NCBI GenBank assembly: GCA_947630465.1
Contig: CANRHT010000023.1
Location: 1-15,671, forward strand
Length of the DNA: 15,671 nt
Direction: 5' to 3'
Source: an uncultured Pseudomonadaceae bacterium
Lineage (GTDB): Bacteria > Pseudomonadota > Gammaproteobacteria > Pseudomonadales > Pseudomonadaceae
The notes below the pieces were generated by a model, which did no database searches, was not told where the DNA came from, and saw nothing but the letters and a program-made list of their open reading frames with translations. Shown here piece after piece: positions 2,088-15,671 of this stretch. Within the stretch, counting starts at the first letter, position 1, and every line of letters starts with the position of its first letter. A program made the translations under genes and the position numbers.

Positions 2088-3023
2088 ATGATGCGCATAA
2101 ACGTCTTCAGCGTTTTTAGATATTTTACGTTATTAAGCTTTCTGGCGATTGGCTTAACTGTGCCGGTGCAGGCCGATGAGTTGCTGATGATTGAGCATGC
2201 ACAAGGGCAAACCCAGGTGCAAAATCTACCTAAAACGGTTGCGGTGTTGGATTGGTCAACCCTCGATACGATGGCGGGCCTAGGCGTGCAAGCGCAGGGT
2301 ATTCCTAACTCGAATATTTTGCCGCCGATGCTCAGCGAGTATGAGGATGCACGTTTTGTGCGTATTGGAACCCTGTTTGAACCTGATTACGAAGCGCTGA
2401 AAAACCTTCAACCAGACCTGATTATTTTAGGCCGTCGTGCGGCTGGGCAATATGCAGAAGTGGCTAAGTATGGCCCGACCCTTGATCTAACGCCGAACCC
2501 AAACGATATGCTCGGCAGTGTGGTGCGTAACACAGAAATTCTTGGGCAGATTTTTGATCGTGAACAACAGGCTGCTGAGTTAACCGCCAAGCTGCAGGCA
2601 TCTGTTAAGCAGTTACAAACGCTCAGTGCTCAGCAAGGTACAGGCCTGACACTGCTGACCACGGGCGGAAAAATGAGCGCTTTTGGTATCGGTACGCGTT
2701 TTGGCATGATCCATGATGTGTTTGGTGTGCAGCCAGCAGTTGCTGACTTAAAAGTAGGTCGTCATGGGCAGTCTGTATCCTATGAGTTCTTGCTGGAAGC
2801 CAACCCCGATTGGTTGTTTGTAATGGATCGCGACGCTGCGATTGGGCGTGAAGGCGTAGCCGCGCAGCAGATGATGGACAACGAGTTGGTGCAAGCCACG
2901 GAAGCGGGCGCGAAAGGGCAGATTGTTTATCTAGAACCTGTCGGTTGGTACCTGCTGGATAACAGCGGTTTGCGCGTGATGCAAGATAATGTTGATCGTC
3001 TAGTCGATGTTTTTTCTAAGTAA
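2088..3023 (+). CDS. periplasmic ferric-siderophore binding protein (CeuE/FatB/VctP/YclQ type)
   Basis: Type III periplasmic binding protein of an iron-siderophore ABC importer, 311 residues. A signal peptide ends at VQA (27-29). The pattern of KVGRHGQS (222-229), PDWLFVMDR (240-248) and WYLLDNSG (287 on) is that of the CeuE/YclQ family. Campylobacter CeuE completes iron coordination of tetradentate catecholates with a His and a Tyr; the equivalents here are His226 and Tyr288. Arg117, Arg204 and Arg248 match the three pocket arginines of CeuE. It should therefore bind bis-catechol iron complexes such as hydrolysed enterobactin. Two ATGs stand in tandem; the one at 2091 is better spaced (6 bases) from AGGAG at 2080-2084. 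First gene of the transporter operon, behind a Fur-type promoter. Confidence 0.92.
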   Translation: MMRINVFSVFRYFTLLSFLAIGLTVPVQADELLMIEHAQGQTQVQNLPKTVAVLDWSTLDTMAGLGVQAQGIPNSNILPPMLSEYEDARFVRIGTLFEPDYEALKNLQPDLIILGRRAAGQYAEVAKYGPTLDLTPNPNDMLGSVVRNTEILGQIFDREQQAAELTAKLQASVKQLQTLSAQQGTGLTLLTTGGKMSAFGIGTRFGMIHDVFGVQPAVADLKVGRHGQSVSYEFLLEANPDWLFVMDRDAAIGREGVAAQQMMDNELVQATEAGAKGQIVYLEPVGWYLLDNSGLRVMQDNVDRLVDVFSK

Positions 3024-3046
3024 ACGCACCTCATAAAATCACCTGA

Positions 3047-3100
3047 GTTTAGGCTAGCTTAATCGGTAGCCTAAGCCCAGAGAGCGTTGCAATAACGCTC
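3047..3100 (+). repeat. two tandem hairpins between binding-protein and permease genes
   Basis: TTAGGCTA (3049-3056) pairs perfectly with TAGCCTAA (3067-3074), extendable by a wobble and a G-C pair to 3047-3076. GAGCGTT (3082-3088) pairs with AACGCTC (3094-3100) over a 5-base loop. A T-rich stretch (TTTTGTTT) follows, but only after about ten bases. The pair sits where binding-protein operons often carry structures that protect the upstream messenger or partly stop transcription, giving more binding protein than permease. That role is an inference. Confidence 0.6.
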
Positions 3101-3149
3101 CCAATGGTGGTTTTGTTTATCTGTATGATTCTGTAGTAAGCGAACCTGT

Positions 3150-4157
3150 ATGGCTGTTGCTCCTTCTGAAATTTCCCTCTCGACTCAGCCGCGTACTGCT
3201 TGGTGGTTACTTGGTTTGGTGTTGCTGGTCGTTGCCTTATCGATCGTCAGTTTAAATGTGGGTGCCAGCCGCATGAATCTGATGCACCTATTTACTGACC
3301 CGGATGATCGGATAACACAGTTGCTGTTTGTCAGTCGTTGGCCGCGTACTCTTGCATTGATTTTGGCTGGGGCATCGCTGGCCGTGTCGGGTTTGATTCT
3401 GCAAATGATGGCGCGTAATCGCCTCGTCGAACCCTCTATGGTTGGCACGGTCGATGCCGCTGCTTTTGGTGTTTTACTTTGTACTATTCTCGCGCCCAGC
3501 ATGCTGCTGTGGCTTAAATTCAGCATCGTGACCCTTTGTGCGACGCTAGGCACTGTGTTGTTTTTGGCCGTGCTGAAACGCATTCCCTTACGCGCAGCTT
3601 TAATTGTGCCGTTGGTGGGTTTGGTGTTAGCGGGAGTGATTCATGCAGGCAGCAGTTTAGTTGCCCATCAGTTTGAATTGACCCAAGCCTTACGCGCGTG
3701 GAATAGCGGTGATTTCTCGGCGATTTTGCGCGGACGCTATGAGCTGCTCTGGGTTGCTGCAGGGATTATGCTGCTGGCGATGCTGTTGGCTGATCGCTTT
3801 ACTGTGATAGGCATGGGTAAAGATTTTGCGACCAATGTTGGGGTGAACTATCGCTGGCTGATGATCGCGGGTGTGCTGTTGGTGTCGATGATTGTTTCAA
3901 GTGTGGTGATTATTGCCGGTGCTTTACCTTTTATCGGTCTGATTGTGCCTAATATAATTCGCCTGATTACCGGCGATAACTTACGCCGTGCGATTCCATT
4001 GGTGGCGTTGGCGGGGTCTGCCTTAATGCTAACGGCTGACTTATTAGGCCGCGTTTTGATCCATCCGTATGAAATTCCCTCGGCTAATATTTTAGCGATT
4101 TGCGGCAGCGTAGCGTTCTTAGTGATTTTAATACGGGGGCGTAGACAATGGGCTTAA
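3150..4157 (+). CDS. iron-siderophore ABC transporter permease (FatD/CeuB/VctD type)
   Basis: Inner-membrane permease of the FecCD family, 335 residues, highly hydrophobic with eight or more membrane helices. Family signatures are SRWPRTLALILAGASLAVSG followed by LILQ (63 on), a GMGKDFATNVGVN loop that contacts the ATPase, and LPFIGLIVPNIIRLITG near the C terminus. It forms a heterodimeric channel with the next gene product and moves the iron complex from the binding protein to the cytoplasm. The ribosome site is weak, which fits lower output than the binding protein. The stop codon overlaps the next gene by 10 bases, indicating coupled translation. Confidence 0.93.
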   Translation: MAVAPSEISLSTQPRTAWWLLGLVLLVVALSIVSLNVGASRMNLMHLFTDPDDRITQLLFVSRWPRTLALILAGASLAVSGLILQMMARNRLVEPSMVGTVDAAAFGVLLCTILAPSMLLWLKFSIVTLCATLGTVLFLAVLKRIPLRAALIVPLVGLVLAGVIHAGSSLVAHQFELTQALRAWNSGDFSAILRGRYELLWVAAGIMLLAMLLADRFTVIGMGKDFATNVGVNYRWLMIAGVLLVSMIVSSVVIIAGALPFIGLIVPNIIRLITGDNLRRAIPLVALAGSALMLTADLLGRVLIHPYEIPSANILAICGSVAFLVILIRGRRQWA

Positions 4158-5107
4158 ATCGGCGTGGCCAGCTGCTGCTGAGCCTAACCGTGCTGCTGGC
4201 GTTACTCAGTATGCTCGGCTTTATGACGCTTAACGTGCACAGTGACTGGAGTTTTATCCTGCAGTATCGCGGCAGCCGCTTGTTAGCAATGTTGCTGGTG
4301 GCGATGACCATGGGGCTGTCGACCGTGGTATTTCAGACCATCACTCACAACCGCATTTTAACCCCGTCATTGATGGGGTTTGATGTGCTCTATGTGTTGG
4401 TGAGCTCGCTGGCACTGGTGCTATGGGGTAGCGAATACGCTGCGAGTTGGCCGCTGGAGTTGCATTTTATTGTAGAAGTGGCGGTGATGGTGGCCATCGC
4501 TGTACTGCTGTTTCGTTGGTTGTTTACCGATTCTGTGTGCGGTTTACATGTGTTGATCCTGCTGGGCATGGTCGGTGGCCTGTTGTTTCGCGAGCTGGCA
4601 GAACTTGCCCTACGGCTGCTTGATCCCAGTGAGTTTTCTATTCAGCAGGGCAGTGGTACGGCAAATTTCAACCGCATTAACCTGCAGTTGTTGTCCGTGA
4701 GTTTAGTGGGTGTGGTTGTCTGCGGTGTGCTGCTGTTTCGTTTGCGTCGCCATTTGGATGTGCTCAGCTTAGGGCGCGATGTCGCCATTAATCTGGGCGT
4801 GCCCTATACAAAAATAGTCACTCAGTTGATGTTGCTGATTTGTGTGCTGGTGTCGATTAGCACGGCGTTAGTTGGTCCGATGCTGTTCTTTGGTTTGCTC
4901 GTGGCTAATTTGGCGTACTGGTTAACCGGCAGTCATCAGCACCGATGGACTTTGCCGGCCAGTGTGTTGGCGGGGATTGTGTGCTTGGTCGGCGGGCAAG
5001 TTGTATTTGAGCATCTATTGCAGTCCGGCTTGCCGTTAGCCATGGTGATTGAGTTGTGCGGTGGTGTGTTATTTATTGCGCTGTTGTTGCGTGGAGTTAA
5101 ACAATGA
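4148..5107 (+). CDS. iron-siderophore ABC transporter permease (FatC/CeuC/VctG type)
   Basis: Second FecCD-family permease, 319 residues. The segment from residue 42, with RGSRLLAMLLVAMTMGLST then FQT and the NRILTPSLMGFD motif, is the hallmark of the FatC/CeuC/VctG half rather than the FatD half. SLGRDVAINLGVPYTK is the cytoplasmic coupling loop for the ATPase. It is the partner of the preceding permease. The start lies inside the preceding gene, and its TGA overlaps the ATPase start as ATGA, so all three are translated as one coupled block. Confidence 0.92.
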   Translation: MGLNRRGQLLLSLTVLLALLSMLGFMTLNVHSDWSFILQYRGSRLLAMLLVAMTMGLSTVVFQTITHNRILTPSLMGFDVLYVLVSSLALVLWGSEYAASWPLELHFIVEVAVMVAIAVLLFRWLFTDSVCGLHVLILLGMVGGLLFRELAELALRLLDPSEFSIQQGSGTANFNRINLQLLSVSLVGVVVCGVLLFRLRRHLDVLSLGRDVAINLGVPYTKIVTQLMLLICVLVSISTALVGPMLFFGLLVANLAYWLTGSHQHRWTLPASVLAGIVCLVGGQVVFEHLLQSGLPLAMVIELCGGVLFIALLLRGVKQ

Positions 5108-5868
5108 TTGAAACACGTGGGCTGAGTAAAAAATATCAAGACACAGTGGTGGTCGATAAAGTCAGTTTACAAATCAGCAAAGGCGGCCTGACCTCAATTA
5201 TCGGCCCTAATGGTGCGGGTAAATCGACCTTGCTCTCGATGATCAGTCGTTTAACGCCGATGAGTGCGGGCAGTGTCGAAATTGATGGCTTAGATGTCAC
5301 GCGCACCCCAGGGCCTGAATTGGCTAAACGCTTGTCGATTTTGCGCCAACATAACGAATCGACTTTACGCCTGACAGTGCGAGACTTAGTCGCTTTTGGT
5401 CGTTTTCCGCATTCGGCTGGGCGTCTAACCGCTGATGATCAGCAGCATATTGATGAGGCCATTGAGTACCTTGAACTGGGTGACTATCAGCACCGTCATT
5501 TAGATGAGTTATCCGGTGGGCAGCGCCAACGTGCTTATGTCGCTATGGTGATGTGCCAAGACACTGAGTATGTGCTGCTGGATGAGCCGTTGAATAATAT
5601 CGATATGCGCCATGCTGTGGGGATGATGCAGTTATTGCGGCGCGCAGCAGATGAAAAAGGTAAAACGATTGTTGTCGTCCTGCACGATATCAATTTTGCC
5701 TCTTGTTATTCTGATCATATTATTGCCATGCGCGCAGGCAAATTGGCCTATCAAGGGACGTCTGAGCAGATTATTCGCAGCGAGGTATTGAGTGATATTT
5801 ATAAGATACCCATGCAGGTTCATGAGCTAAGTGGACAAAGAATTTGCGTGTATTTTCGGCAGTTTTAA
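5104..5868 (+). CDS. iron-siderophore ABC transporter ATP-binding protein (FatE/CeuD/VctC type)
   Basis: A 254-residue ATPase that powers the two-permease channel. All nucleotide-site motifs are intact: Walker A GPNGAGKST (34-42), Q-loop Gln82, signature LSGGQ (136-140), Walker B YVLLDEP with Glu161, D-loop NNID, and the switch His194 in VLHD. The length and the FecE-like architecture are normal for siderophore importers. Translation is coupled to the upstream permease by an ATGA overlap. No convincing terminator follows, so some transcripts may continue into the receptor gene 151 bases downstream. Confidence 0.95.
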   Translation: MIETRGLSKKYQDTVVVDKVSLQISKGGLTSIIGPNGAGKSTLLSMISRLTPMSAGSVEIDGLDVTRTPGPELAKRLSILRQHNESTLRLTVRDLVAFGRFPHSAGRLTADDQQHIDEAIEYLELGDYQHRHLDELSGGQRQRAYVAMVMCQDTEYVLLDEPLNNIDMRHAVGMMQLLRRAADEKGKTIVVVLHDINFASCYSDHIIAMRAGKLAYQGTSEQIIRSEVLSDIYKIPMQVHELSGQRICVYFRQF

Positions 5869-5917
5869 GGGCTGATGCTATTTGCCATGTGCGGCCTATT
5901 AATTGAATGTGTGAGTT

Positions 5918-5948
5918 TTTAGCAAACATATCTGCACCTTTAGCAAAC
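5918..5948 (+). promoter_or_regulatory. direct repeat TTTAGCAAAC x2, 21-bp period: candidate AraC-family operator
   Basis: Two identical 10-mers begin at 5918 and 5939, exactly two helical turns apart on the same strand. AraC-type activators bind such paired half-sites with their two helix-turn-helix motifs. The second copy abuts the place where the receptor's -35 box would be, and the best -10 candidate (CATACT/TACTAT, 5970-5977) has no recognisable -35 partner, as expected for an activator-dependent promoter. The AraC-type gene at 8332-9219 is the obvious candidate to bind here. Confidence 0.6.
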
Positions 5949-5982
5949 TTTCTCCAAATATTAATGTGACATACTATCGCCT

Positions 5983-6001
5983 GTTAATGAGAATCATTTC
6001 A
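5983..6001 (+). promoter_or_regulatory. Fur-box-like site before the receptor gene
   Basis: The 19 bases match the Fur consensus at 14 positions, with an unbroken TTAATGA half and AATCATT half. It lies just downstream of the -10 candidate and before the ribosome site, so iron-loaded Fur would block receptor transcription. Confidence 0.75.
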
Positions 6002-6019
6002 ATTTAAGGTGTGAATAGT

Positions 6020-8296
6020 ATGCGCAAATCTTTATGGCTGCTCAGCGGGCTTGCTTTTGCTGTCGCTGCTCAAGCAAACGACTCTAATTCTAAAGTGTAT
6101 GAATTAGGTGACGCTGTGGTGCTGGGTACCGCAGAAGAAACCCTGAAGCAAGCGCCGGGTGTGTCAATTATTACCGCTGAAGACCTTGCCAAGCGTCCGG
6201 TGAATAACGATCTATCGGAAGTTATTCGAACCATGCCTGGCGTTAATTTGACGGGAAATAGCACCAGTGGCCAGCGTGGTAATAATCGCCAGATTGATAT
6301 TCGTGGCATGGGCCCAGAAAACACGTTGATCCTAATTGATGGCAAGCCCGCCAGCAGCCGCCAGTCGGTGCGTTACGGTTGGCGTGGTGAGCGTGACTCG
6401 CGCGGTGACACCAACTGGGTTCCCGCGGAAGCAGTAGAACGTATTGAAGTGCTACGTGGGCCCGCTGCTGCTCGTTATGGCAGTGGTGCTGCGGGTGGTG
6501 TGGTGAATATCATCACCAAAAGTGTTCCAGATAAACTCCAAGGTTCAGTGACCGCTTATACCAACCAGCCGCAATCCTCGAAAGATGGTGCCAGCAAGCG
6601 CATGAACTTTATGTTGGCGGGGCCGTTGTCCGATAAAGTGGGTGTGCGACTCTCTGGCAATGTCGCAAAAACCGATTCAGATGCGCGTGATATTAACCTA
6701 GGCCACCAATCAACTCGTGGTGTAGCGCCTAATGGTACGGATTACCGTGGTACATACCCGGCAGGGCGTGAAGGTGTGCGTAATAAAGACTTAGCAGCGC
6801 GCTTAAGTTTTCAGCCCGTTGATGACCATCAGTTTGACCTCGATGCCAGTTTCAGTCGGCAGGGCAATATCTACACCGGCGATACGCAAAATACCAATAA
6901 CTACACCACCGATAAAAATGGACAGTTAGTGGCGACCTCGGATCGAGTAGAGCGTTACCTAGATCGTGAAACCAATGTGATGTACCGCGAAAACTATGCG
7001 TTGACTCACCGGGGTGAGTACGACCTCGGAGATTCCTTAAGCTATATCCAGTATGAGAAAACCCGCAATCGCCGTTTAGATGAAGGGCTTGCAGGCGGGA
7101 CTGAAGGTTTGTTCTCTGATGATCGTAAAAGCACATCAGTGCTGCATCAATACAGTGCCCACTCTGAATTTGATATGCCAACTGAGCTGCTAGGCTTGAA
7201 TCAAGTGCTGACCTTTGGTGCACAATGGACCCAGAGCAAGCTGATTGATCAAAACTCGACTGGGCAAAACACCACTGGTACGGGGCAAGTGGGTAGCCTT
7301 GCGAGTGTCGGGCGCAATAACCAAGCCAAAGATCATATGATTTCAGTATTTATTGAGGACAATATTGAGTTAACTGGCAAAACTGTACTCACGCCCGGTG
7401 TGCGCTACGACAAACACAGTGTCACCGGTGATAACTGGAGCCCTGCGCTGAATATCTCTCATTATCTTGATGATGCATGGACATTAAAAGCGGGGATTGC
7501 TCGGGCTTATAAAGCGCCGAATCTGTATCAAACCAACCCTAACTACCTACTCTATAGTCGCGGTAATGGTTGCTGGGGCTCTGGCGGTGCCTGCTACTTG
7601 CAAGGCAATAAAAATCTGAAGGCTGAGACCAGCATTAATAAAGAGTTCGGTGTTGAGTTTGTTCAAGGTGATGTTGTTGCTGGGATCACTTATTTCCATA
7701 ATAGCTATCGTGACAAAGTTGAGGCCGGATTGCAGCCAGTGGGTCAGGCTGTCGGTGGCTCGGGTGCCTTTGCTAATCCGGATATTTTTATGTGGGATAA
7801 CGTGCCTAGGGCAGTAGTGGAAGGGCTTGAGGGGACCTTTAATATTGGCCTGACGCCCACCTTAGATTGGTCAAATAATCTAACCTATATGCTGCAAAGT
7901 AAAAATAAAACCACAGGCGAGTCATTGTCGGTGATTCCCGAATTTACTTTGAACTCGCGCTTGGATTGGCAAGTCACCAGTCAGTTGGGTTTGCATACCC
8001 ACGTGACTTGGTACGGTAAACAAAAACCGAACAAGTATGATTTTCAGGGTGTGCGAGCCACGGGTGAAGAGCGGCAGCAATTATCACCCTATGCTTTGGT
8101 TGGCTTAGGCGGGCGCTACGCATTATCTGAGCAGTTCGCTTTTACGGCGGGTATCGATAATTTATTTGATAAACGCTTGTACCGCCGTGGTAACGGTGTT
8201 GGTGTCGGTGATCCGCGCACTATTTATGGTGCCGGTGCGGCGACCTATAACGAACCAGGGCGTAGCTTTTATACTTCAGCGACTTTTAGCTTTTAA
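6020..8296 (+). CDS. pfeA: TonB-dependent ferric enterobactin-type receptor (FepA/PfeA/BfeA family)
   Basis: Outer-membrane receptor of 758 residues. The signal peptide ends at AQA (17-19), and a TonB box (DAVVLG, 31-36) follows. The plug contains stretches nearly identical to FepA-family proteins: PGVNLTGNS, RGNNRQIDIRGMGPENTL, SVRYGWRGERDSRGDTNWVP and RGPAAARYGSGAAGGVVNI. Cys518 and Cys525 fit the conserved loop disulfide of the family. The barrel ends in ATFSF, a typical outer-membrane insertion signal. It should carry ferric enterobactin or related catecholates. I start at ATG 6020 because AAGG at 6006-6009 is well spaced to it; GTG at 6011 overlaps the ribosome site. The gene has its own Fur-like and AraC-like sites and is followed by a terminator. 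Confidence 0.93.
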   Translation: MRKSLWLLSGLAFAVAAQANDSNSKVYELGDAVVLGTAEETLKQAPGVSIITAEDLAKRPVNNDLSEVIRTMPGVNLTGNSTSGQRGNNRQIDIRGMGPENTLILIDGKPASSRQSVRYGWRGERDSRGDTNWVPAEAVERIEVLRGPAAARYGSGAAGGVVNIITKSVPDKLQGSVTAYTNQPQSSKDGASKRMNFMLAGPLSDKVGVRLSGNVAKTDSDARDINLGHQSTRGVAPNGTDYRGTYPAGREGVRNKDLAARLSFQPVDDHQFDLDASFSRQGNIYTGDTQNTNNYTTDKNGQLVATSDRVERYLDRETNVMYRENYALTHRGEYDLGDSLSYIQYEKTRNRRLDEGLAGGTEGLFSDDRKSTSVLHQYSAHSEFDMPTELLGLNQVLTFGAQWTQSKLIDQNSTGQNTTGTGQVGSLASVGRNNQAKDHMISVFIEDNIELTGKTVLTPGVRYDKHSVTGDNWSPALNISHYLDDAWTLKAGIARAYKAPNLYQTNPNYLLYSRGNGCWGSGGACYLQGNKNLKAETSINKEFGVEFVQGDVVAGITYFHNSYRDKVEAGLQPVGQAVGGSGAFANPDIFMWDNVPRAVVEGLEGTFNIGLTPTLDWSNNLTYMLQSKNKTTGESLSVIPEFTLNSRLDWQVTSQLGLHTHVTWYGKQKPNKYDFQGVRATGEERQQLSPYALVGLGGRYALSEQFAFTAGIDNLFDKRLYRRGNGVGVGDPRTIYGAGAATYNEPGRSFYTSATFSF

Positions 8297-8304
8297 ATAG
8301 AGTT

Positions 8305-8345
8305 CACGCTCTAAAGCAGTCACCGGCTGCTTTAGAGCGTGTTTT
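8305..8345. terminator. strong terminator shared by convergent receptor and regulator genes
   Basis: Arms 8305-8319 and 8327-8341 pair perfectly over 15 bases with a 7-base loop, followed by TTTT on the plus strand. On the minus strand the run after the stem is weaker. The right arm contains the TAA stop and last codons of the AraC-type gene. Confidence 0.9.
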
Positions 8346-9219
8346 GCAACTGCTTTGGAGTGGCACCGTACTCTTTCTTTACTGCTGTTGAGAAGTTGGC
8401 TGTATTGCTATATCCCGCTAGATCAGCCGCTTGGCCAATCGTTATATGCTCATTTTTTAACGCATCAATTGCGCGCTTAAGGCGTTGCTGTCGATGGTAT
8501 TGGGCGACGCTGATATGAAAGTGGCGTTGAAAGTGCCGCTGCAGACTACTGATGCTCATGCCGACACGCTCGGCTATAGCTTGAAGTGAAAAGGGCTCAC
8601 AGTTGCAGTTGTCGAGTAGTGCTTTGGCCCGTATCAGACGTTCATCGGGGGAGATCATTGCGCCTGCACAATGCGGCGCACTGTCTAGCAAAGACAGCAG
8701 TGCCTCGCTGATCAGTTCAATGCAGCGGCTTTCTAAAAAAAGCTTAGGCACGCCACACCCAGAGACTGGTGTAAGCAAAATTTGCTGAGCGATCACTAGC
8801 GCTTTTTTGGAGGGCTCCCACATATGGACGCTCAGATGTTGCTCAAGTATGTTCAGTCGTTGTGCAGGTGTGTTTTGCAGGCTTTGTAATAGCCAGTCAT
8901 GGCTAAAGTAAACGCTGAGCGTCTTTGCATAAGTCTGTGGTTGGCAGTGCTGCACACATAACTCAGGGCGAACTAAGTTAATCAGCGCGCCAGTATTCTT
9001 ATCTGTTCCCGGTGTCTTACCCAATACACAATCGAGACCATTAAAAGCAAAATCGGCACAACCGTCTACAACAAGTGCTAACTTCAAGCCGGGTAGCGCG
9101 CACATATCTGTAGTGATGTGCTGAGCAGTATTAATCTGTGCGGTCCGCACAAGCAGCCCTTTGCGCAGAGTAACAATTTGTGAGTGTTCACTGTTCAATG
9201 CTTGTAAACCCTTGTGCAT
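8332..9219 (-). CDS. AraC-family transcriptional regulator of siderophore uptake (PchR/BfeR-like)
   Basis: A 295-residue protein with a variable N-terminal ligand-sensing part and a C-terminal AraC DNA-binding domain. The first helix-turn-helix is FSLQAIAERVGMSISSLQRH and the second is ITIGQAADLAGYSNTANFST, closing with YGATPKQL. The GYSNTANFST form is typical of the PchR-like group that switches on siderophore receptors when the siderophore is present. Target candidate: the 21-bp direct repeat at 5918. The ATG has no clear ribosome site; TTG at 9198-9196 has AAGGG about 9 bases upstream and could be the true start, removing seven residues. The gene follows the esterase by 124 bases on the same strand. 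Its last codons lie in the shared terminator stem. Confidence 0.9.
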   Translation of the reverse strand: MHKGLQALNSEHSQIVTLRKGLLVRTAQINTAQHITTDMCALPGLKLALVVDGCADFAFNGLDCVLGKTPGTDKNTGALINLVRPELCVQHCQPQTYAKTLSVYFSHDWLLQSLQNTPAQRLNILEQHLSVHMWEPSKKALVIAQQILLTPVSGCGVPKLFLESRCIELISEALLSLLDSAPHCAGAMISPDERLIRAKALLDNCNCEPFSLQAIAERVGMSISSLQRHFQRHFHISVAQYHRQQRLKRAIDALKNEHITIGQAADLAGYSNTANFSTAVKKEYGATPKQLQNTL

Positions 9220-9271
9220 GTGGTGTGCGTTTTAGAGCATGCAAAGGCTCCGAAACGGTATGACCTAGATA

Positions 9272-9302
9272 CTGTGCAGTAAATGTAGGCACAGCTGTGC
9301 AG
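9272..9302. promoter_or_regulatory. repeat cluster CTGTGCAG / GCACAGCTGTGC before the regulator gene
   Basis: CTGTGCAG occurs at 9272-9279 and 9295-9302 (period 23), and a perfect 12-base palindrome GCACAGCTGTGC spans 9289-9300. The cluster lies 50-80 bases upstream of the regulator start, where an operator could sit. No specific protein can be assigned, and it does not resemble the TTTAGCAAAC repeat. Confidence 0.35.
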
Positions 9303-9343
9303 GCTTCATGCAGGTCTGAATGGGATGTGTAGTGCACTGAAAA

Positions 9344-10255
9344 CTACTCATACACAAGTCCTTGCGTTAGCCGCAACGCAGTGGGTATTGAAGCATCCAA
9401 TAAACTACCGTGAGTATGCTTAAAGTATTCGTGGTATTGCACTTCTAGTTCTGGCAAACGACTTAAACGCTCGGCTAAGCGCCGTGTTGCATCATCTGGC
9501 AAAGTATCGCCTTTGCGATGTGATGAGCTGCGCTGAATGACGACCTGTGCTGCTGGGCGCAGGCTCAGTTGTTGATACGCTGACTCATTATTTAAAATCA
9601 AACCCTGCTGCCACCACAGTGAAGGGTCTGCTGCAATGTAGGTTTGAAAACTTTTTGGGTGATTAAATAAGGTATGCAGCACAAACAGACCGCCGAAAGA
9701 GTGCCCCCATACGGCTTGGCGTTGCAGGTCTAATGCAGCTGTCTGCGCTACCAGAGGTTTTACCTTGTACTCTATAAATTGCCAGAATATATCTGCACCA
9801 CCGTGTTTCTTGATTTCTTCAGGGGTACCGTTCGATAGCGGTGGTGTGTAGTCGTATGCCCGTGCGTTGACGTCAAAATAGGCTTCAGTGTCATAGGCAA
9901 TAGTGACAATCACTGGGCTGTCAGCGGTTTGTAAGCGTTTGAATCTCTGCTCATTTAAACCTGCTAAGGCTGCATTGCCGTCTAACATATACAGAACAGG
10001 ATAGCCGGAATCAGGAGCCGGTACTTTTGGTAGGGCAATAGTGATTTTGTAGTGCCATAGCTGATCAGCGGATGAGAGCAAGTGCTGCTTGAAATTATAA
10101 TACTCTGATCCTGTGTCAACGATTGTCGCGCCGACTTTGCGTGTTAAATCAGGCGCTGCGATTGCAGCCGTCGGTAGTATAAGGGCTAGGCTCAAGGTTA
10201 CAGCCGTGCACAAAGCCATAATTGTATTGGGCTCTGCGTGAGTGTTTCTCTGCAT
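9344..10255 (-). CDS. periplasmic siderophore esterase (IroE/PfeE/Cee-like)
   Basis: A 303-residue alpha/beta hydrolase of the esterase-D-like family that linearises enterobactin-type trilactones. A hydrophobic signal sequence ends at AIAA (31-34), so it acts in or facing the periplasm, as IroE and PfeE do, unlike cytoplasmic Fes. Family marks are YPVLYMLDGNAAL (85-97), the nucleophile motif GHSFGG with Ser186, ADPSLWW (209-215) and HTHGSL with His282, matching the Ser-His pair of IroE. The segment AYDYTP (133-138) is also typical. ATG at 10255 has a weak ribosome site; Met13 is an alternative. A Fur-box-like site lies about 90 bases upstream and the regulator gene follows, so iron should control both. 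Confidence 0.9.
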   Translation of the reverse strand: MQRNTHAEPNTIMALCTAVTLSLALILPTAAIAAPDLTRKVGATIVDTGSEYYNFKQHLLSSADQLWHYKITIALPKVPAPDSGYPVLYMLDGNAALAGLNEQRFKRLQTADSPVIVTIAYDTEAYFDVNARAYDYTPPLSNGTPEEIKKHGGADIFWQFIEYKVKPLVAQTAALDLQRQAVWGHSFGGLFVLHTLFNHPKSFQTYIAADPSLWWQQGLILNNESAYQQLSLRPAAQVVIQRSSSHRKGDTLPDDATRRLAERLSRLPELEVQYHEYFKHTHGSLLDASIPTALRLTQGLVYE

Positions 10256-10342: not shown

Positions 10343-10361
10343 CTAAATGATAATCATACTC
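10343..10361 (-). promoter_or_regulatory. Fur-box-like site before the esterase gene
   Basis: Fourteen of 19 positions match the Fur consensus, with a perfect ATGATAATCAT core. On the minus strand it overlaps TATGAT (10358-10353), a good -10 candidate for the esterase, although no clear -35 is present. The rest of the 349-base gap (10256-10604) holds the palindrome at 10310 and no convincing gene; a promoter for the plus-strand gene at 10605 is not obvious. Confidence 0.75.
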
Positions 10362-10604: not shown

Positions 10605-11408
10605 ATGGCTGGACGAATCAGGTTTATATGGCATGCATCGGTGGCGACTTTATTTGCGGTGCTGTCATTTTTTGTGTGGCGCATCGCTTATCAATGGACT
10701 GACTGGGCGGCGCTTGCGTTGCTGCCGTTTGCGTTTGTGCTGGCTTATGGAACCTGGTCTCTGACCATGGAGTCGTGGAGGGCTCAGCTGCATCTTATCG
10801 TTCGACCCAAATCAGGCTTGGCTAAACTTTTATCCGGTAAGATTCGAGCCTTTTTTATCAGTGCTGTTTTTACGCTGATCGCGATCACTGTTTTAGCTTG
10901 GAAAGCGCTGGATGCCTCGATGCTTGAAGCGCTCGTTATGTGCACGGCCTTTCTGCTATCGGCGTACGTGTTATCAGTCTTGCAAATAATTTTTTCACGA
11001 CATTTTCACCCACCGTTTGACCGTAATATAGCTGTGAGTGTGGCCACTTGGCTGAGTGCAATGCTGGTGTTTGTGGTGTTTTTTGTACTGTATTGGGCGG
11101 TGAAGCTCAGTCCTGGAGAGTTGTTCGCTGCAGAAAATTTAACTGACGTTATTGGCTTGGCACAAAATAGTTTACCGGCAAGAAGCGGGTGGGTTACAGC
11201 GCTGATGTCTGCTTTGGCAAGCTACGAAAACCTTAAGTTATGGCTGGTTGTGCAGCTCAGGGATTATCTGGTATCGGGTGTTTTCTACAGCTTGGACGCA
11301 GCGTTGTGGGCCTATGTGCTGTGCCGTTCTGCAGTTGTCAGCACCCATCTGATTAAAACAAAAGTGTTTGGGAGTGTAATGGGTGAGCAGGATGCACAAG
11401 CAGAATAA
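10605..11408 (+). CDS. six-helix membrane protein of unknown function
   Basis: I do not recognise this 267-residue protein. It has about six membrane helices (roughly 10-26, 33-52, 81-99, 108-130, 142-166 and 222-245) with short basic loops, a 55-residue stretch between helices five and six that may face the periplasm, and a short polar tail. There are no catalytic motifs or binding sites I can name. A stop codon stands directly before the ATG, so the start is firm, although the ribosome site (GGAA) is weak. Its last 26 bases overlap the next gene, which points to coupled translation and a joint function of the two membrane proteins. Confidence 0.75.
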   Translation: MAGRIRFIWHASVATLFAVLSFFVWRIAYQWTDWAALALLPFAFVLAYGTWSLTMESWRAQLHLIVRPKSGLAKLLSGKIRAFFISAVFTLIAITVLAWKALDASMLEALVMCTAFLLSAYVLSVLQIIFSRHFHPPFDRNIAVSVATWLSAMLVFVVFFVLYWAVKLSPGELFAAENLTDVIGLAQNSLPARSGWVTALMSALASYENLKLWLVVQLRDYLVSGVFYSLDAALWAYVLCRSAVVSTHLIKTKVFGSVMGEQDAQAE

Positions 11409-13122
11409 TCATACAAACGACGCTATAGAGGGGCTCAATGACGGTGAAGAAACTGATGACTTGGGGAATGCAGAAGCTGCCTTAGAGTCCGAAGATCATC
11501 AGCGCGCTGACACCGCATCTGTTGCCGTGTTGAGTTTTACGAGGTGGTTTTGGGGGAGTATTATTGTCCTTGCGTTGATCGCGATCATGTTAAGCAGTAT
11601 TGCGATATGGCGTCAAAATAGCACGGCAGAACCGAGTCACCCAGCGCATGAAATCAGCGCCAGCACCTTAAGAGATGTTTTATCAAACCCAAAAGATCGT
11701 GCGCTCGATGCTGTCTTATCAGAGCTGCCGGAGCGGTTAGATCGAGCCTATAAGCCTGTTTACGCAGCAATTACTGATTATGCGGATTTTCATTATTCAC
11801 TTAAAGGTGAGTACACAGAGCTTTATGTGGCCAGTTTGGGTGATCCTGCGGAAAAGTTGCAAAGCATAGTTTTTAATGGGTTGGATCAGCGTCTTGAGCG
11901 TATAACAGGTGGCCTTGATGACAGATTCAATGAAGTGTTTAAGGCGCAACTTGCTGTCGTATTGCAGCGTGAGGAAAGCGCACAGGGGGCGTTTGGCGTT
12001 GTGACTCAGCGGGTTATTGAGGATGTCAACGCGCGGATTATCTACACCGCACCTTTATCTGCATCCAGTGCTGTGGGCGGCGCAGTGGCGTTAAGCGCTG
12101 CTGCAAAAGCCATGTCAAAAAAACTGGCCGCTAAGGTGGCCACTAAAGCCGCTGCGAAATCAGGTGGTAAGTTAGCGAGTACTTTAACCGGTGCCGGTAC
12201 TGCAGCCTTAGCCTGTGGTCCGGCCGCGCCAGTGTGTGGAGTGGTGGGCGGTGCAGTGGCTTGGTTTGTAACGGATTACGGTATTTTAATGGTGGATGAG
12301 AGTTGGAATCGTGAGGATTTTGAAAACGATTTACGCGTATTAGTGGATGACATGAAAGAGGCGCATCGTCTCGCTATAGAGCAGGCGCTTGTCGCGAGAG
12401 CGGGTGCGACTGCAGCACTTATTAGTGAAGTTGTTGAATATCAAAGTTTTACTGTGCGTGAACTCAATAATCTAGGTATGCAGAAACTATGCTCTGTTGC
12501 CACACAAATGAGCTCAAATTATGCACAGATGAGCAACAGTATCGAGGCGCGTGCCCCGAAGGGGCTGGAGTCTTTGCGTGAAACAGCCGACGCTTATGAA
12601 GGCCATGTTTCAATCGGTCGCTTAGCAGATGAAATCAAGAAAAATCTAACCCATGCTGAAGATATAAAGGCTGTTGAGTTTGAGTTGAGCGGTCATTTGC
12701 CTGCAGCTTATCGAGCCGACCGTGAGATTTCAGCGGTGCTGGTATTGAATGGACAGACATTTAACATCAAGAAAATGGCCGCCACCGCAGATAAAGAGTT
12801 CTCCATCAGGTCTGCGGTGGATGCAGCATTAAAGATCAATCAACCACTGCGGTATAACATTGTCTTTGAGCAGCATTTACGCTTACAGGGCAATAGGTAT
12901 TTTAAGGGCGCTGGTGAAATTGGGGATTTAGCAGAGGCTGGGGTTAGCGATGGTTTAAGTAAGCATCTTGAGCTACAGATAGCGATCGCACGCGATTCCA
13001 GTAGTAATGTGCAGCAGGTGGTTAATAGGCAGCCCGTTGACGGCAGTCAGGTTAAGTTGGCTCTGAGGTTAAATGCACCAGCTTTACCGCCACTTGAAAT
13101 GCTACCGGCTGCTTGTCAGTAA
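11383..13122 (+). CDS. single-pass membrane protein with Gly/Ala-rich hydrophobic segment, unknown function
   Basis: A 579-residue protein I cannot assign. Order of parts: an acidic, disordered-looking N-terminus (14-43), a membrane helix (56-76), a helical region (about 95-220), a Gly/Ala/Lys-rich stretch (225-295) with alternating small residues and two close cysteines (Cys278, Cys285), then VAWFVTDYGILMVDE and a C-terminal part (about 415-579) that looks rich in beta strands. With the single helix the bulk should be periplasmic. The small-residue stretch resembles glycine-zipper helices that insert into or pack within membranes. GTG at 11383 has GGGAG 8 bases upstream and is preferred to ATG 11392. 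It overlaps the six-helix gene by 26 bases. Confidence 0.8.
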   Translation: MSRMHKQNNHTNDAIEGLNDGEETDDLGNAEAALESEDHQRADTASVAVLSFTRWFWGSIIVLALIAIMLSSIAIWRQNSTAEPSHPAHEISASTLRDVLSNPKDRALDAVLSELPERLDRAYKPVYAAITDYADFHYSLKGEYTELYVASLGDPAEKLQSIVFNGLDQRLERITGGLDDRFNEVFKAQLAVVLQREESAQGAFGVVTQRVIEDVNARIIYTAPLSASSAVGGAVALSAAAKAMSKKLAAKVATKAAAKSGGKLASTLTGAGTAALACGPAAPVCGVVGGAVAWFVTDYGILMVDESWNREDFENDLRVLVDDMKEAHRLAIEQALVARAGATAALISEVVEYQSFTVRELNNLGMQKLCSVATQMSSNYAQMSNSIEARAPKGLESLRETADAYEGHVSIGRLADEIKKNLTHAEDIKAVEFELSGHLPAAYRADREISAVLVLNGQTFNIKKMAATADKEFSIRSAVDAALKINQPLRYNIVFEQHLRLQGNRYFKGAGEIGDLAEAGVSDGLSKHLELQIAIARDSSSNVQQVVNRQPVDGSQVKLALRLNAPALPPLEMLPAACQ

Positions 13123-13180
13123 GTTTAGATAAAGTATTAGATCAATCTTTGTCGTTGGATTGGGCAGCGCTCATGCGTAA

Positions 13181-13206
13181 GCGACGGCTCAATGGTGCGC
13201 CGTCGC
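13181..13206. repeat. GC-rich hairpin between convergent genes
   Basis: GCGACGGC (13181-13188) and GCCGTCGC (13199-13206) form a perfect 8-base stem over 10 bases in the 107-base gap between the convergent genes ending at 13122 and 13230. No T run follows on either strand, so it is at most a weak or protein-assisted terminator. Confidence 0.55.
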
Positions 13207-13229
13207 AGCAGGCTATACACACCTAAAGT

Positions 13230-14849
13230 TTACAACTGTACCGGTGCCGACCAACTGTTTTTCATAGTCAGCAGCCAGTCGCTGGGGTGTAGGGGCAAAA
13301 ACTTAAATAAAGGCCTGTAATTGATATGAGCGATTGCCCCTTCGCGTTTGCCGTAGGGGAAGACTTTTCCGGCGAGTTTTGCGCTCAACGCCTGAGTTAC
13401 TGCGACTTCTAGCGCATTCTCTTTGTTTTGCCCTGATTTTTCATTGGCGTTGAAACGGGTAAACACAAATGAACTTATCCTTAATGGGATAAACTTATTG
13501 CGTGCTACGCGAGGGCGCACGTCGGTTGCTGGCTGCATGGTAAAGCGCGTGATGCCTTTATAGGTTGTACCCGCAGCTTTTACTGTGACTTTGGCTTCGT
13601 GGGGGTTGGCGAAACTAAATAGCACCGATGCGGGTTGGCCTTGGTAAACAAAATCCACATGATAATCCGGATTCCAGTCCAAAATATTGAAGTCCACTCG
13701 GTGTTCTTTAATCATTTTTTCAGGCATCGCTACTTTGTAAAGATCAAACAGCGGATAAGAAAACAAATAAAACGCCACATAGCAGCTGGCGGCTAGAGTT
13801 AAGGCATGGCGCAAGCGTTTGCGTGGCTGCAGGCCGAGGCAGTGCTCTTTGTAGTTTGCGAAATTGCTACGCAGGCTGAACAAGCGCATCCCTTTATAGC
13901 CCCTGAGGTGAGCCTCGCAACCTTGTAGTCGGCCATTGATAAAGTCCTCTTTACTTTTAAGTAGCTTTCCAATTTTTTTGATCATGGCTTTGTGCTGAGC
14001 TTTATCGGGCGCTAGGTCTGCTAGTAAGGCATTGGCATAACGCCGATCGGGTCCTCTACGGCACAACACGCTGATTAAGAGTAAGTTAACCAAGCTCACA
14101 CTCAGCAGTGCGAGTAGGCCATGTCCCACCACAGCAAAAAGTATGACCAGTAAAAAAATAGCACTAAACAGAACTTTACTGGACTGAAAAATATTGCCAG
14201 TGGAGGCCGCATGAGCGCCTTCGCTAAAAAAACTACCCATGATTTTAAATGGACCGACACACAACGCATAAATCACGCTGCTGATGTGCATGGCTTTATT
14301 GCGATGGGCAAGACTTGAAGTACCGCGGTCCAGACGCGACATTTCGGTAGCAAGCAACCAAGTCAGCTCTGGTCTACTTAAACCGTAAAGTGCCGCTGAG
14401 GTGATCACTAAAACGGGCGGTACCAGTAAGCGCACTTTACAGCTGTTAATGCGTACCACATTGGACTGTTCAATAAACACGCTCGGCTCGCAGAGCATGT
14501 CGCGATGTCTAGCTAAAGTGCTGACTTGTTTTTGCAGAAAGGCAATGCGCTCATCCATATCGCAGAGCTCATCATTCACCCAAACGAATGAGCTGTCGTC
14601 ATTTAAAAAAAGAGCGCTGGCTATATAACGTGTTTGATACCAGCGCACGCCAACGTAGAGAATGAGCATGATTGAGGTGAAAAAATAGTACATTTTCTGC
14701 GGTGCGGCCATCTCGTATATATCCCAAGACAGCTCATGGGCGTTAAACAAGCTGTACCAGCCCATGTCCATGAAAAACCCCGTCAACAGGTAGCCCATAA
14801 ACCAAATCAACTCAAGAATCACAATCATAACAACAGCCTGCACCGCCAA
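13230..14849 (-). CDS. multi-pass membrane protein, M48 peptidase homologue without zinc ligands
   Basis: A 539-residue protein with membrane helices near 5-27, 53-70, 187-203, 226-262 (two) and 350-372 and a C-terminal soluble domain (about 380-539). Residues 141-176, with VLVITSAALYGLSRPELTWL then LATEMSRLDRG, line up with the M48/HtpX pattern in which a hydrophobic strand and 'L..EL..VLAHE..H...' precede the active site. Where HExxH belongs there is TEMSR (168-172), and where ExxAD belongs there is RRYAN (269-273). All three zinc ligands are therefore absent, so peptidase activity is not expected. The start is uncertain: TTG at 14849 has no ribosome site, the frame is open back to 14885 without an ATG, and ATG 14828 is an alternative. 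Transcribed towards the unknown pair. Confidence 0.7.
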   Translation of the reverse strand: MAVQAVVMIVILELIWFMGYLLTGFFMDMGWYSLFNAHELSWDIYEMAAPQKMYYFFTSIMLILYVGVRWYQTRYIASALFLNDDSSFVWVNDELCDMDERIAFLQKQVSTLARHRDMLCEPSVFIEQSNVVRINSCKVRLLVPPVLVITSAALYGLSRPELTWLLATEMSRLDRGTSSLAHRNKAMHISSVIYALCVGPFKIMGSFFSEGAHAASTGNIFQSSKVLFSAIFLLVILFAVVGHGLLALLSVSLVNLLLISVLCRRGPDRRYANALLADLAPDKAQHKAMIKKIGKLLKSKEDFINGRLQGCEAHLRGYKGMRLFSLRSNFANYKEHCLGLQPRKRLRHALTLAASCYVAFYLFSYPLFDLYKVAMPEKMIKEHRVDFNILDWNPDYHVDFVYQGQPASVLFSFANPHEAKVTVKAAGTTYKGITRFTMQPATDVRPRVARNKFIPLRISSFVFTRFNANEKSGQNKENALEVAVTQALSAKLAGKVFPYGKREGAIAHINYRPLFKFLPLHPSDWLLTMKNSWSAPVQL

Positions 14850-15156: not shown

Positions 15157-15671
15157 ATGCGCTGGTGTTTATTTGCGGTGATCGGATTGTTAGCGGCTTG
15201 TCAAAGTACTCCTATAGAGCGTGCTGCACCAGCCTCCGCTGCAGTGGCAAACGAGTATCAATTGCCCGAATGGCAAAGCCCGCGTGAGCGTGATCATGCA
15301 CAAGTGGGGCAGATTATTGATCTGCGTAGCGGTCATGAGATAACCCGTGATGCCTTAGTACAGACGTTAGCGGCTGCGCCTCTGGTATTGCTCGGGGAGA
15401 AACACGATAACTTTGATCACCATGCGCTGCAGTTGTGGTTGCTGAAAACGCTGGAAGCGCAGCGTAAACAAGGCGCTCTGGTGATGGAAATGCTCACGGT
15501 AAACCAGCAAGAAAGCGTCAGTGCCGTACAAAATAAAATACGCGCAGGCGAAATGCCGGACGATGTGCCGGCAGCATTGGAATGGCATACCGGCTGGGAT
15601 TGGCAGCAGTACGGCGAATTAGTGACCTATGCACTGCAGCAGCCCTATCCTTTATTAGCGGCCAATTTAAA
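15157..15671 (+). CDS. phuW: ChaN/PhuW-family haem-binding lipoprotein, 3' end outside window
   Basis: The reading frame opens at ATG 15157, with AAGG 6 bases upstream, and runs off the window after 171 codons. The N terminus is a lipoprotein signal with lipobox LAAC (Cys15). The mature part has VLLGEKHDNFDHH (77-89), LVMEMLTVNQQ and the W-x-x-GW-x-W-x-x-Y pattern (WHTGWDWQQYGE), all typical of the ChaN/PhuW family, which binds haem at the membrane surface and is linked to haem-iron use. PhuW belongs to the phuSTUVW operon; here only a tail of the ATPase gene remains upstream, so how this gene is transcribed is unclear. No Fur box is evident in 15095-15156. Confidence 0.85.
   Translation, partial: MRWCLFAVIGLLAACQSTPIERAAPASAAVANEYQLPEWQSPRERDHAQVGQIIDLRSGHEITRDALVQTLAAAPLVLLGEKHDNFDHHALQLWLLKTLEAQRKQGALVMEMLTVNQQESVSAVQNKIRAGEMPDDVPAALEWHTGWDWQQYGELVTYALQQPYPLLAANL

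Follow-up and report, generated by a model that had tools for sequence, protein, structure and literature searches.

A PfeA/PfeE-type receptor and esterase linked to a CeuE-class importer: a candidate route for catecholate iron across the inner membrane

How does iron cross the inner membrane once an exported esterase has taken ferric enterobactin apart? In Pseudomonas aeruginosa, where pfeE adjoins pfeA, PfeE is reported to cut ferric enterobactin into three 2,3-dihydroxybenzoylserine (DHBS) monomers, and the inner-membrane crossing of the freed iron was stated in 2021 to be unknown (PMC8001512). Because this step was reported as unknown, a locus at positions 2088–10255 of contig CANRHT010000023.1 (assembly GCA_947630465.1 of an uncultured Pseudomonadaceae bacterium; the whole 15,671-nt stretch analysed is called the window) is of use, as its importer beside a PfeA/PfeE-type pair is a testable candidate for both the missing step and the form in which the iron is carried. 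An earlier sequence-only reading had placed a siderophore receptor, an esterase, a binding protein and an importer together here, and Pfam and NCBIfam searches recovered all of these genes in place.

We favor, with a probability of roughly 60%, periplasmic hydrolysis followed by import of a two-catechol ferric complex, encoded in an iron-regulated xenosiderophore locus. We infer the substrates, the order of the steps and the regulation of the locus as follows. The PfeA-type receptor would carry a ferric tris-catecholate, e.g., that of enterobactin, to the periplasm, where the putatively exported PfeE/IroE-type esterase would open and cut the trilactone; the ferric complex released would contain two catechols, contributed by two DHBS monomers or by a linear dimer. 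The binding protein would then catch this complex, with His226 and Tyr288 occupying the last two iron positions, and the linked FecCD/ATPase importer would pump it inward. The narrower proposal that, in this Pseudomonas-family lineage, the products of the PfeE-type esterase go to a dedicated His/Tyr importer, with iron reaching the cytoplasm still bound to pieces of enterobactin, is more tentative and falls somewhat short of an even chance. If true, this esterase-fed importer would fill in the inner-membrane step that is missing and, as far as this organism is concerned, would run counter to the picture drawn for P. aeruginosa of a siderophore that stays out of the cytoplasm.

The evidence observed at the locus consists of its gene content, protein families, key residues, fold class and Fur-like boxes. 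The best sequence matches of the binding protein, which the sequence-only reading had called CeuE-type, were indeed the thermophile CeuE homologues Pth (221 bits) and Gst (210 bits), followed by YclQ (192), a Xylanimonas protein (188), CeuE (162), BauB (151) and VctP (142 bits). In a sequence alignment, H226 and Y288 (residue numbers are counted from the open reading frames (ORFs) as listed, not from later candidate starts) coincide with His218 and Tyr279 of Gst, the roles of which are described in PMC10394670. Among the 120 homologues listed of 1161, the Tyr was kept in 120 and the His in 118, while R117, R204 and R248 were kept in all 120 as well as in 13/13 aligned sequences; because the listed homologues are the closest ones, part of this conservation is expected regardless. 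The 13-sequence alignment, reaching down to 32% identity, retained the His in 13 and the Tyr in 12 sequences, with the L070 protein lacking a Tyr in that column. Judging by order and spacing, rather than by a residue-by-residue alignment with FatB, the three arginines may constitute the basic Arg triad of this class. Moreover, the structure model of the binding protein clustered with two-catechol binders, which ranked over the tris-catecholate binder FeuA in the fold comparison, and Pth was again the top match in Foldseek; Escherichia coli FepB was not among the best 50 rows of that comparison, which proves nothing. With the subgroup fold, the His/Tyr pair and the arginines all present, the protein is assigned from sequence and modeled fold to the CeuE/YclQ/FatB (His/Tyr) class. 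Its start may lie at 2091, because homologue P0001 has 310 amino acids.

The receptor scored 1067 bits against the NCBIfam FepA-family model NF010048 (cut-off 493) and was far under the cut-off of the CfrA model. Among Protein Data Bank (PDB) entries it was nearest to PfeA (974 bits), followed by FepA (842) and PirA (813), in line with its earlier description as FepA/PfeA-like; it may begin at an ATG nine nucleotides into the listed ORF. The esterase was nearest to PfeE (159 bits) and then to IroE (144 bits), and its GHSFG motif puts the serine at position 186, with H282 also present. Both residues were invariant, in 12/12 aligned sequences and in the 120 homologues listed of 1635, and this combination of a GxSxG serine and a C-terminal His argues for membership of the PfeE/IroE family. 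The family and the two residues given for an IroE-like esterase thus stand, with PfeE preceding IroE as nearest relative, and its export signal is a judgment by eye from a hydrophobic N-terminus ending in AIAAP. The length of homologue P0121 (291 amino acids) suggests that translation starts 12 codons after the listed start. Together, these assignments support catecholate uptake as originally proposed.

The wider genome is compatible with the use of foreign siderophores. The recovered genome, which is 76% complete, yielded neither a non-ribosomal peptide synthetase condensation domain nor a match to isochorismate synthase, in agreement with the claimed absence of biosynthesis genes. Since an isochorismate synthase control gave matches in 14/14 named genomes (seven over the cut-off), a total absence may partly reflect missing sequence. 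The two FecCD permeases of the window were the only strong matches in the recovered genome (a third, on contig C113, reached 27.4 against a cut-off of 26.5 bits), and no FeoB exceeded its cut-off there (six weak matches, the best at 50 vs. 316 bits). These searches, which did not extend to hydroxamate or other siderophore routes, are suggestive, though no proof, that both biosynthesis and another inner-membrane route are absent.

The genes form two convergent groups, i.e., binding protein, two permeases, ATPase and receptor on the plus strand, and esterase followed by an AraC gene on the minus strand (Table 1). Fur-like sites with 14/19 matches occurred three times in the window, whereas each shuffle of its full length under a first-order Markov model is expected to give 0.09; the third site (11583–11601) falls within a coding frame. 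The sequence-only reading had not mentioned the AraC gene, which separates receptor and esterase; a homologue search with its product returned five relatives at 52–56% identity besides itself, and the protein probably tunes the locus. Terminator-like sites were found at the chance rate in the whole scan (11 vs. 10.2 expected), so that only the length of the hairpin between the convergent genes supports it.

Table 1. Features of the catecholate locus and their coordinates in the window.
Feature	Coordinates	Strand	Basis or remark
Periplasmic binding protein, CeuE/YclQ/FatB (His/Tyr) class	2088..3023	+	Peripla_BP_2 (Pfam)
FecCD-type permease 1	3150..4157	+	PF01032, 198 bits
FecCD-type permease 2	4148..5107	+	PF01032, 156 bits; overlaps permease 1
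ATP-binding cassette (ABC) ATPase	5104..5868	+	ABC_tran; top NCBIfam model FecE, 239 bits, under cut-off of 375
Fur-like box ahead of receptor	5983..6001		14/19 vs. consensus
PfeA/FepA-type TonB-dependent receptor	6020 (ORF as listed: GTG 6011)..8296	+	Plug and barrel (Pfam)
Terminator-like hairpin, 15 pairs	8305..8341	-	At convergent ends of receptor and AraC genes; strand as listed
AraC-family regulator	8332..9219	-	HTH_18, PF12833; same direction as, and downstream of, esterase
PfeE/IroE-type esterase	9344..10255, likely start 10219	-	Esterase, PF00756
Fur-like box upstream of esterase	10343..10361		14/19 vs. consensus

Elsewhere in the window, a BD-FAE-type hydrolase, judged by eye to have a lipoprotein-like N-terminus, is encoded at 924–1862, just upstream of the binding-protein gene. 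Three ORFs within 10605–14849 (267, 579 and 539 amino acids) had no Pfam match at 0.01 and show hydrophobic stretches by eye, and a ChaN-like haem-binding protein (PF04187) at 15157–15669 is truncated by the end of the window.

The main alternative is that two separate systems are merely neighbors, with the PfeA/PfeE-type pair stripping enterobactin and freeing its iron in the periplasm, the mode described in P. aeruginosa, and the importer serving another bis-catechol, e.g., petrobactin. We consider this unlikely, although it is the best of the alternatives: the receptor gene lies directly 3′ of the ATPase gene, with the esterase only ca. 1.1 kb beyond the receptor; no second siderophore receptor was found among the scanned ORFs of the window; the recovered genome has no other strong FecCD permease; and it is Pth, not YclQ, that heads both the sequence and the Foldseek comparison.

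The linkage was compared with that in 19 esterase-centered loci (L030, L051 and L053–L069) and ten importer-centered loci (L031–L039 and L070, with L031, L034 and L039 being short contigs); a contig search with a single esterase sequence had yielded one locus, that of Oceanisphaera (L030). A FepA-type receptor (at least 44% identity) was located within ca. 2 kb in 15 of the 19 esterase-centered loci, and the AraC protein of the window was encoded in none of them. Sixteen genomes of the order sample described below gave a strong FepA-type match, and in nine of these the esterase lay at most 1.7 kb from the receptor.

Several observations weigh against hydrolysis followed by fragment import. The binding protein of the window was absent from all 19 esterase-centered loci, and neither its esterase nor any FepA-type receptor (at the same identity threshold) appeared in the ten importer-centered ones, with L033 giving receptor matches of ca. 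30% only. Two esterase-centered loci instead carry a different ABC importer beside a PfeE-type esterase (L053, 5184–10196; L058, 5208–10096), the L053 binding protein being nearest to YfiY (140 bits; schizokinen) and then to SirA (90 bits). Seven of the nine genomes with a neighboring receptor and esterase had no importer match at 1e-30; two had one, which was linked only in the genome of the window. Furthermore, the esterase scored under the curated cut-offs of both NCBIfam models it touched, and the binding-protein gene lacks a Fur-like box that exceeds chance: its one site (2084–2102, over the start codon) matches at 12/19, and each shuffle of the window is expected to produce 6.2 sites of this kind. 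All parts are present in genome G017, where the receptor adjoins the esterase and their contig also carries the importer, at a distance of ca. 24.5 kb.

Co-occurrence was surveyed in samples from the order (390 genomes), the relatives (57) and the class (321), each including the genome of the window, using one-sided Fisher tests and E-value limits of 1e-30 (order, relatives) or 1e-40 (class) for the importer and 1e-20 (order, relatives) or 1e-30 (class) for the esterase. Weaker matches were dropped; among the relatives, 21 genomes had matched the importer at a limit of 0.001, and 11 of them were kept. Importer and esterase were found in 27 and 28 genomes of the order sample and jointly in 3/390 (1.9 expected, p = 0.30), and in 11 and 15 relatives and jointly in 4/57 (2.9 expected, p = 0.31). 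For the class sample these counts were 2, 5 and 2/321 (0.03 expected, p = 0.0002), an excess that rests on two genomes, i.e., that of the window and G567, where the genes are ca. 81 kb apart. With co-occurrence at chance level in two of the three samples, a conserved esterase–importer partnership was rejected. Nor does the combination appear to be a foreign mix, as the wording of the sequence-only reading might suggest, since a search of 11 other genomes of the genus turned up 83%-identical versions of the binding protein in three. Strong importer matches were obtained in 4/12 genus genomes (the window's included), and the esterase was found in 1/12, the window's own.

Related importers were also seen in other settings. 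On plasmids, the importer operon had changing neighbors (four examined of 15 listed, out of 1214 records). A Comamonas odontotermitis plasmid (L071, 1–11821) carries a relative of the operon with a 45%-identical binding protein and, ca. 7 kb away, a gene annotated as an enterochelin esterase domain protein, constituting a second, loose importer–esterase association; in L072, a TonB-dependent receptor gene is located directly 5′ of the operon. In L033 (13718–17089), a TonB-receptor-like gene is seemingly split by a transposase-like ORF (by eye). Finally, a CeuE-type importer operon in L036 (9212–14479; binding protein 40% identical, with His and Tyr) adjoins a receptor whose highest scores are 712 bits against FauA (cut-off 900; alcaligin) and 633 against FhuE (cut-off 666), with AraC and major facilitator superfamily genes alongside. 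Alcaligin is a tetradentate dihydroxamate, so the range of the His/Tyr class may extend beyond catechols to other tetradentate ligands.

Mecam is a tris-catechol mimic. CeuE was crystallized with ferric mecam (2chu, by title), which speaks for an importer that takes intact ferric enterobactin while the esterase only assists with excess or linear forms; set against the two-catechol fold class of the binding protein, we regard this as improbable. An assembly artefact is more improbable still, even for an assembly of 308 contigs at 76% completeness whose linkage recurred in none of the other loci examined, given the little-changed guanine–cytosine (GC) skew across the ATPase–receptor junction (0.19, 0.14 and 0.09 in consecutive 1-kb segments beginning at 4001) and the GC content of 0.46–0.53 throughout (both weak tests), and the presence of the binding protein on 33 contigs of up to 20.7 kb (a count of this protein by itself).

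Within the favored scheme of hydrolysis and fragment import, the specific choice of a linear dimer as the transported species, made in the sequence-only reading, goes beyond the evidence. The Tyr/His site of FatB holds petrobactin or two loose catechols (PMC13279818), and taken with the monomers reported for PfeE this means that Fe(DHBS)2, petrobactin or the dimer would all fit.

Among known systems, Campylobacter jejuni CfrA/Cee/CeuBCDE is alike in joining a receptor to an esterase that acts on trilactones in the periplasm and to an importer served by a His/Tyr binding protein, and in lacking a siderophore of its own (PMC5382913, PMC10394670); Cee is described there as acting ahead of the uptake of fragment complexes, bisDHBS among them (PMC5382913). 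The genome of the window likewise combines a receptor, a putatively exported esterase (by eye) and a His/Tyr importer, whereas its receptor is PfeA-type, its esterase PfeE/IroE-type and an AraC gene is linked. P. aeruginosa PfeA and PfeE are the closest solved receptor and esterase, with the difference that P. aeruginosa relies on PfeR/PfeS, a two-component system (PMC8001512), while the window has a linked importer and AraC gene. A close precedent is Vibrio cholerae vctPDGC-iurV-vctA, in which vctA, an AraC regulator gene and vctPDGC lie together and deletion of the regulator strongly raised vctA expression and also raised that of vctPDGC; iurV lies between importer and receptor, whereas the AraC gene of the window lies beyond the receptor, and the main text describing the V. 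cholerae cluster never uses the word esterase (PMC7600106). The petrobactin importers FatBCDE and YclNOPQ have binding proteins that fall into one structural class with that of the window, with FatB ligating iron via Tyr/His (PMC13279818). They differ from the window in that their ligand is petrobactin. We know of no FepA-type receptor or esterase partner for either. In Sinorhizobium fredii, a receptor gene accompanies petrobactin synthesis and FatBDCE importer genes, an arrangement ascribed to horizontal transfer (PMC8822346); together with the V. cholerae example, this means that receptor–importer clusters of this class are already known. A PfeA/PfeE-type pair beside a His/Tyr importer was not found described in the open-licence literature searched, most subscription journals lying outside it, and PMC12366790, PMC8891985, PMC9470620 and PMC13271415 were not decisive on the pathway. 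Each part of the locus is of a known kind, and the parts together suggest an answer to how iron crosses the inner membrane.

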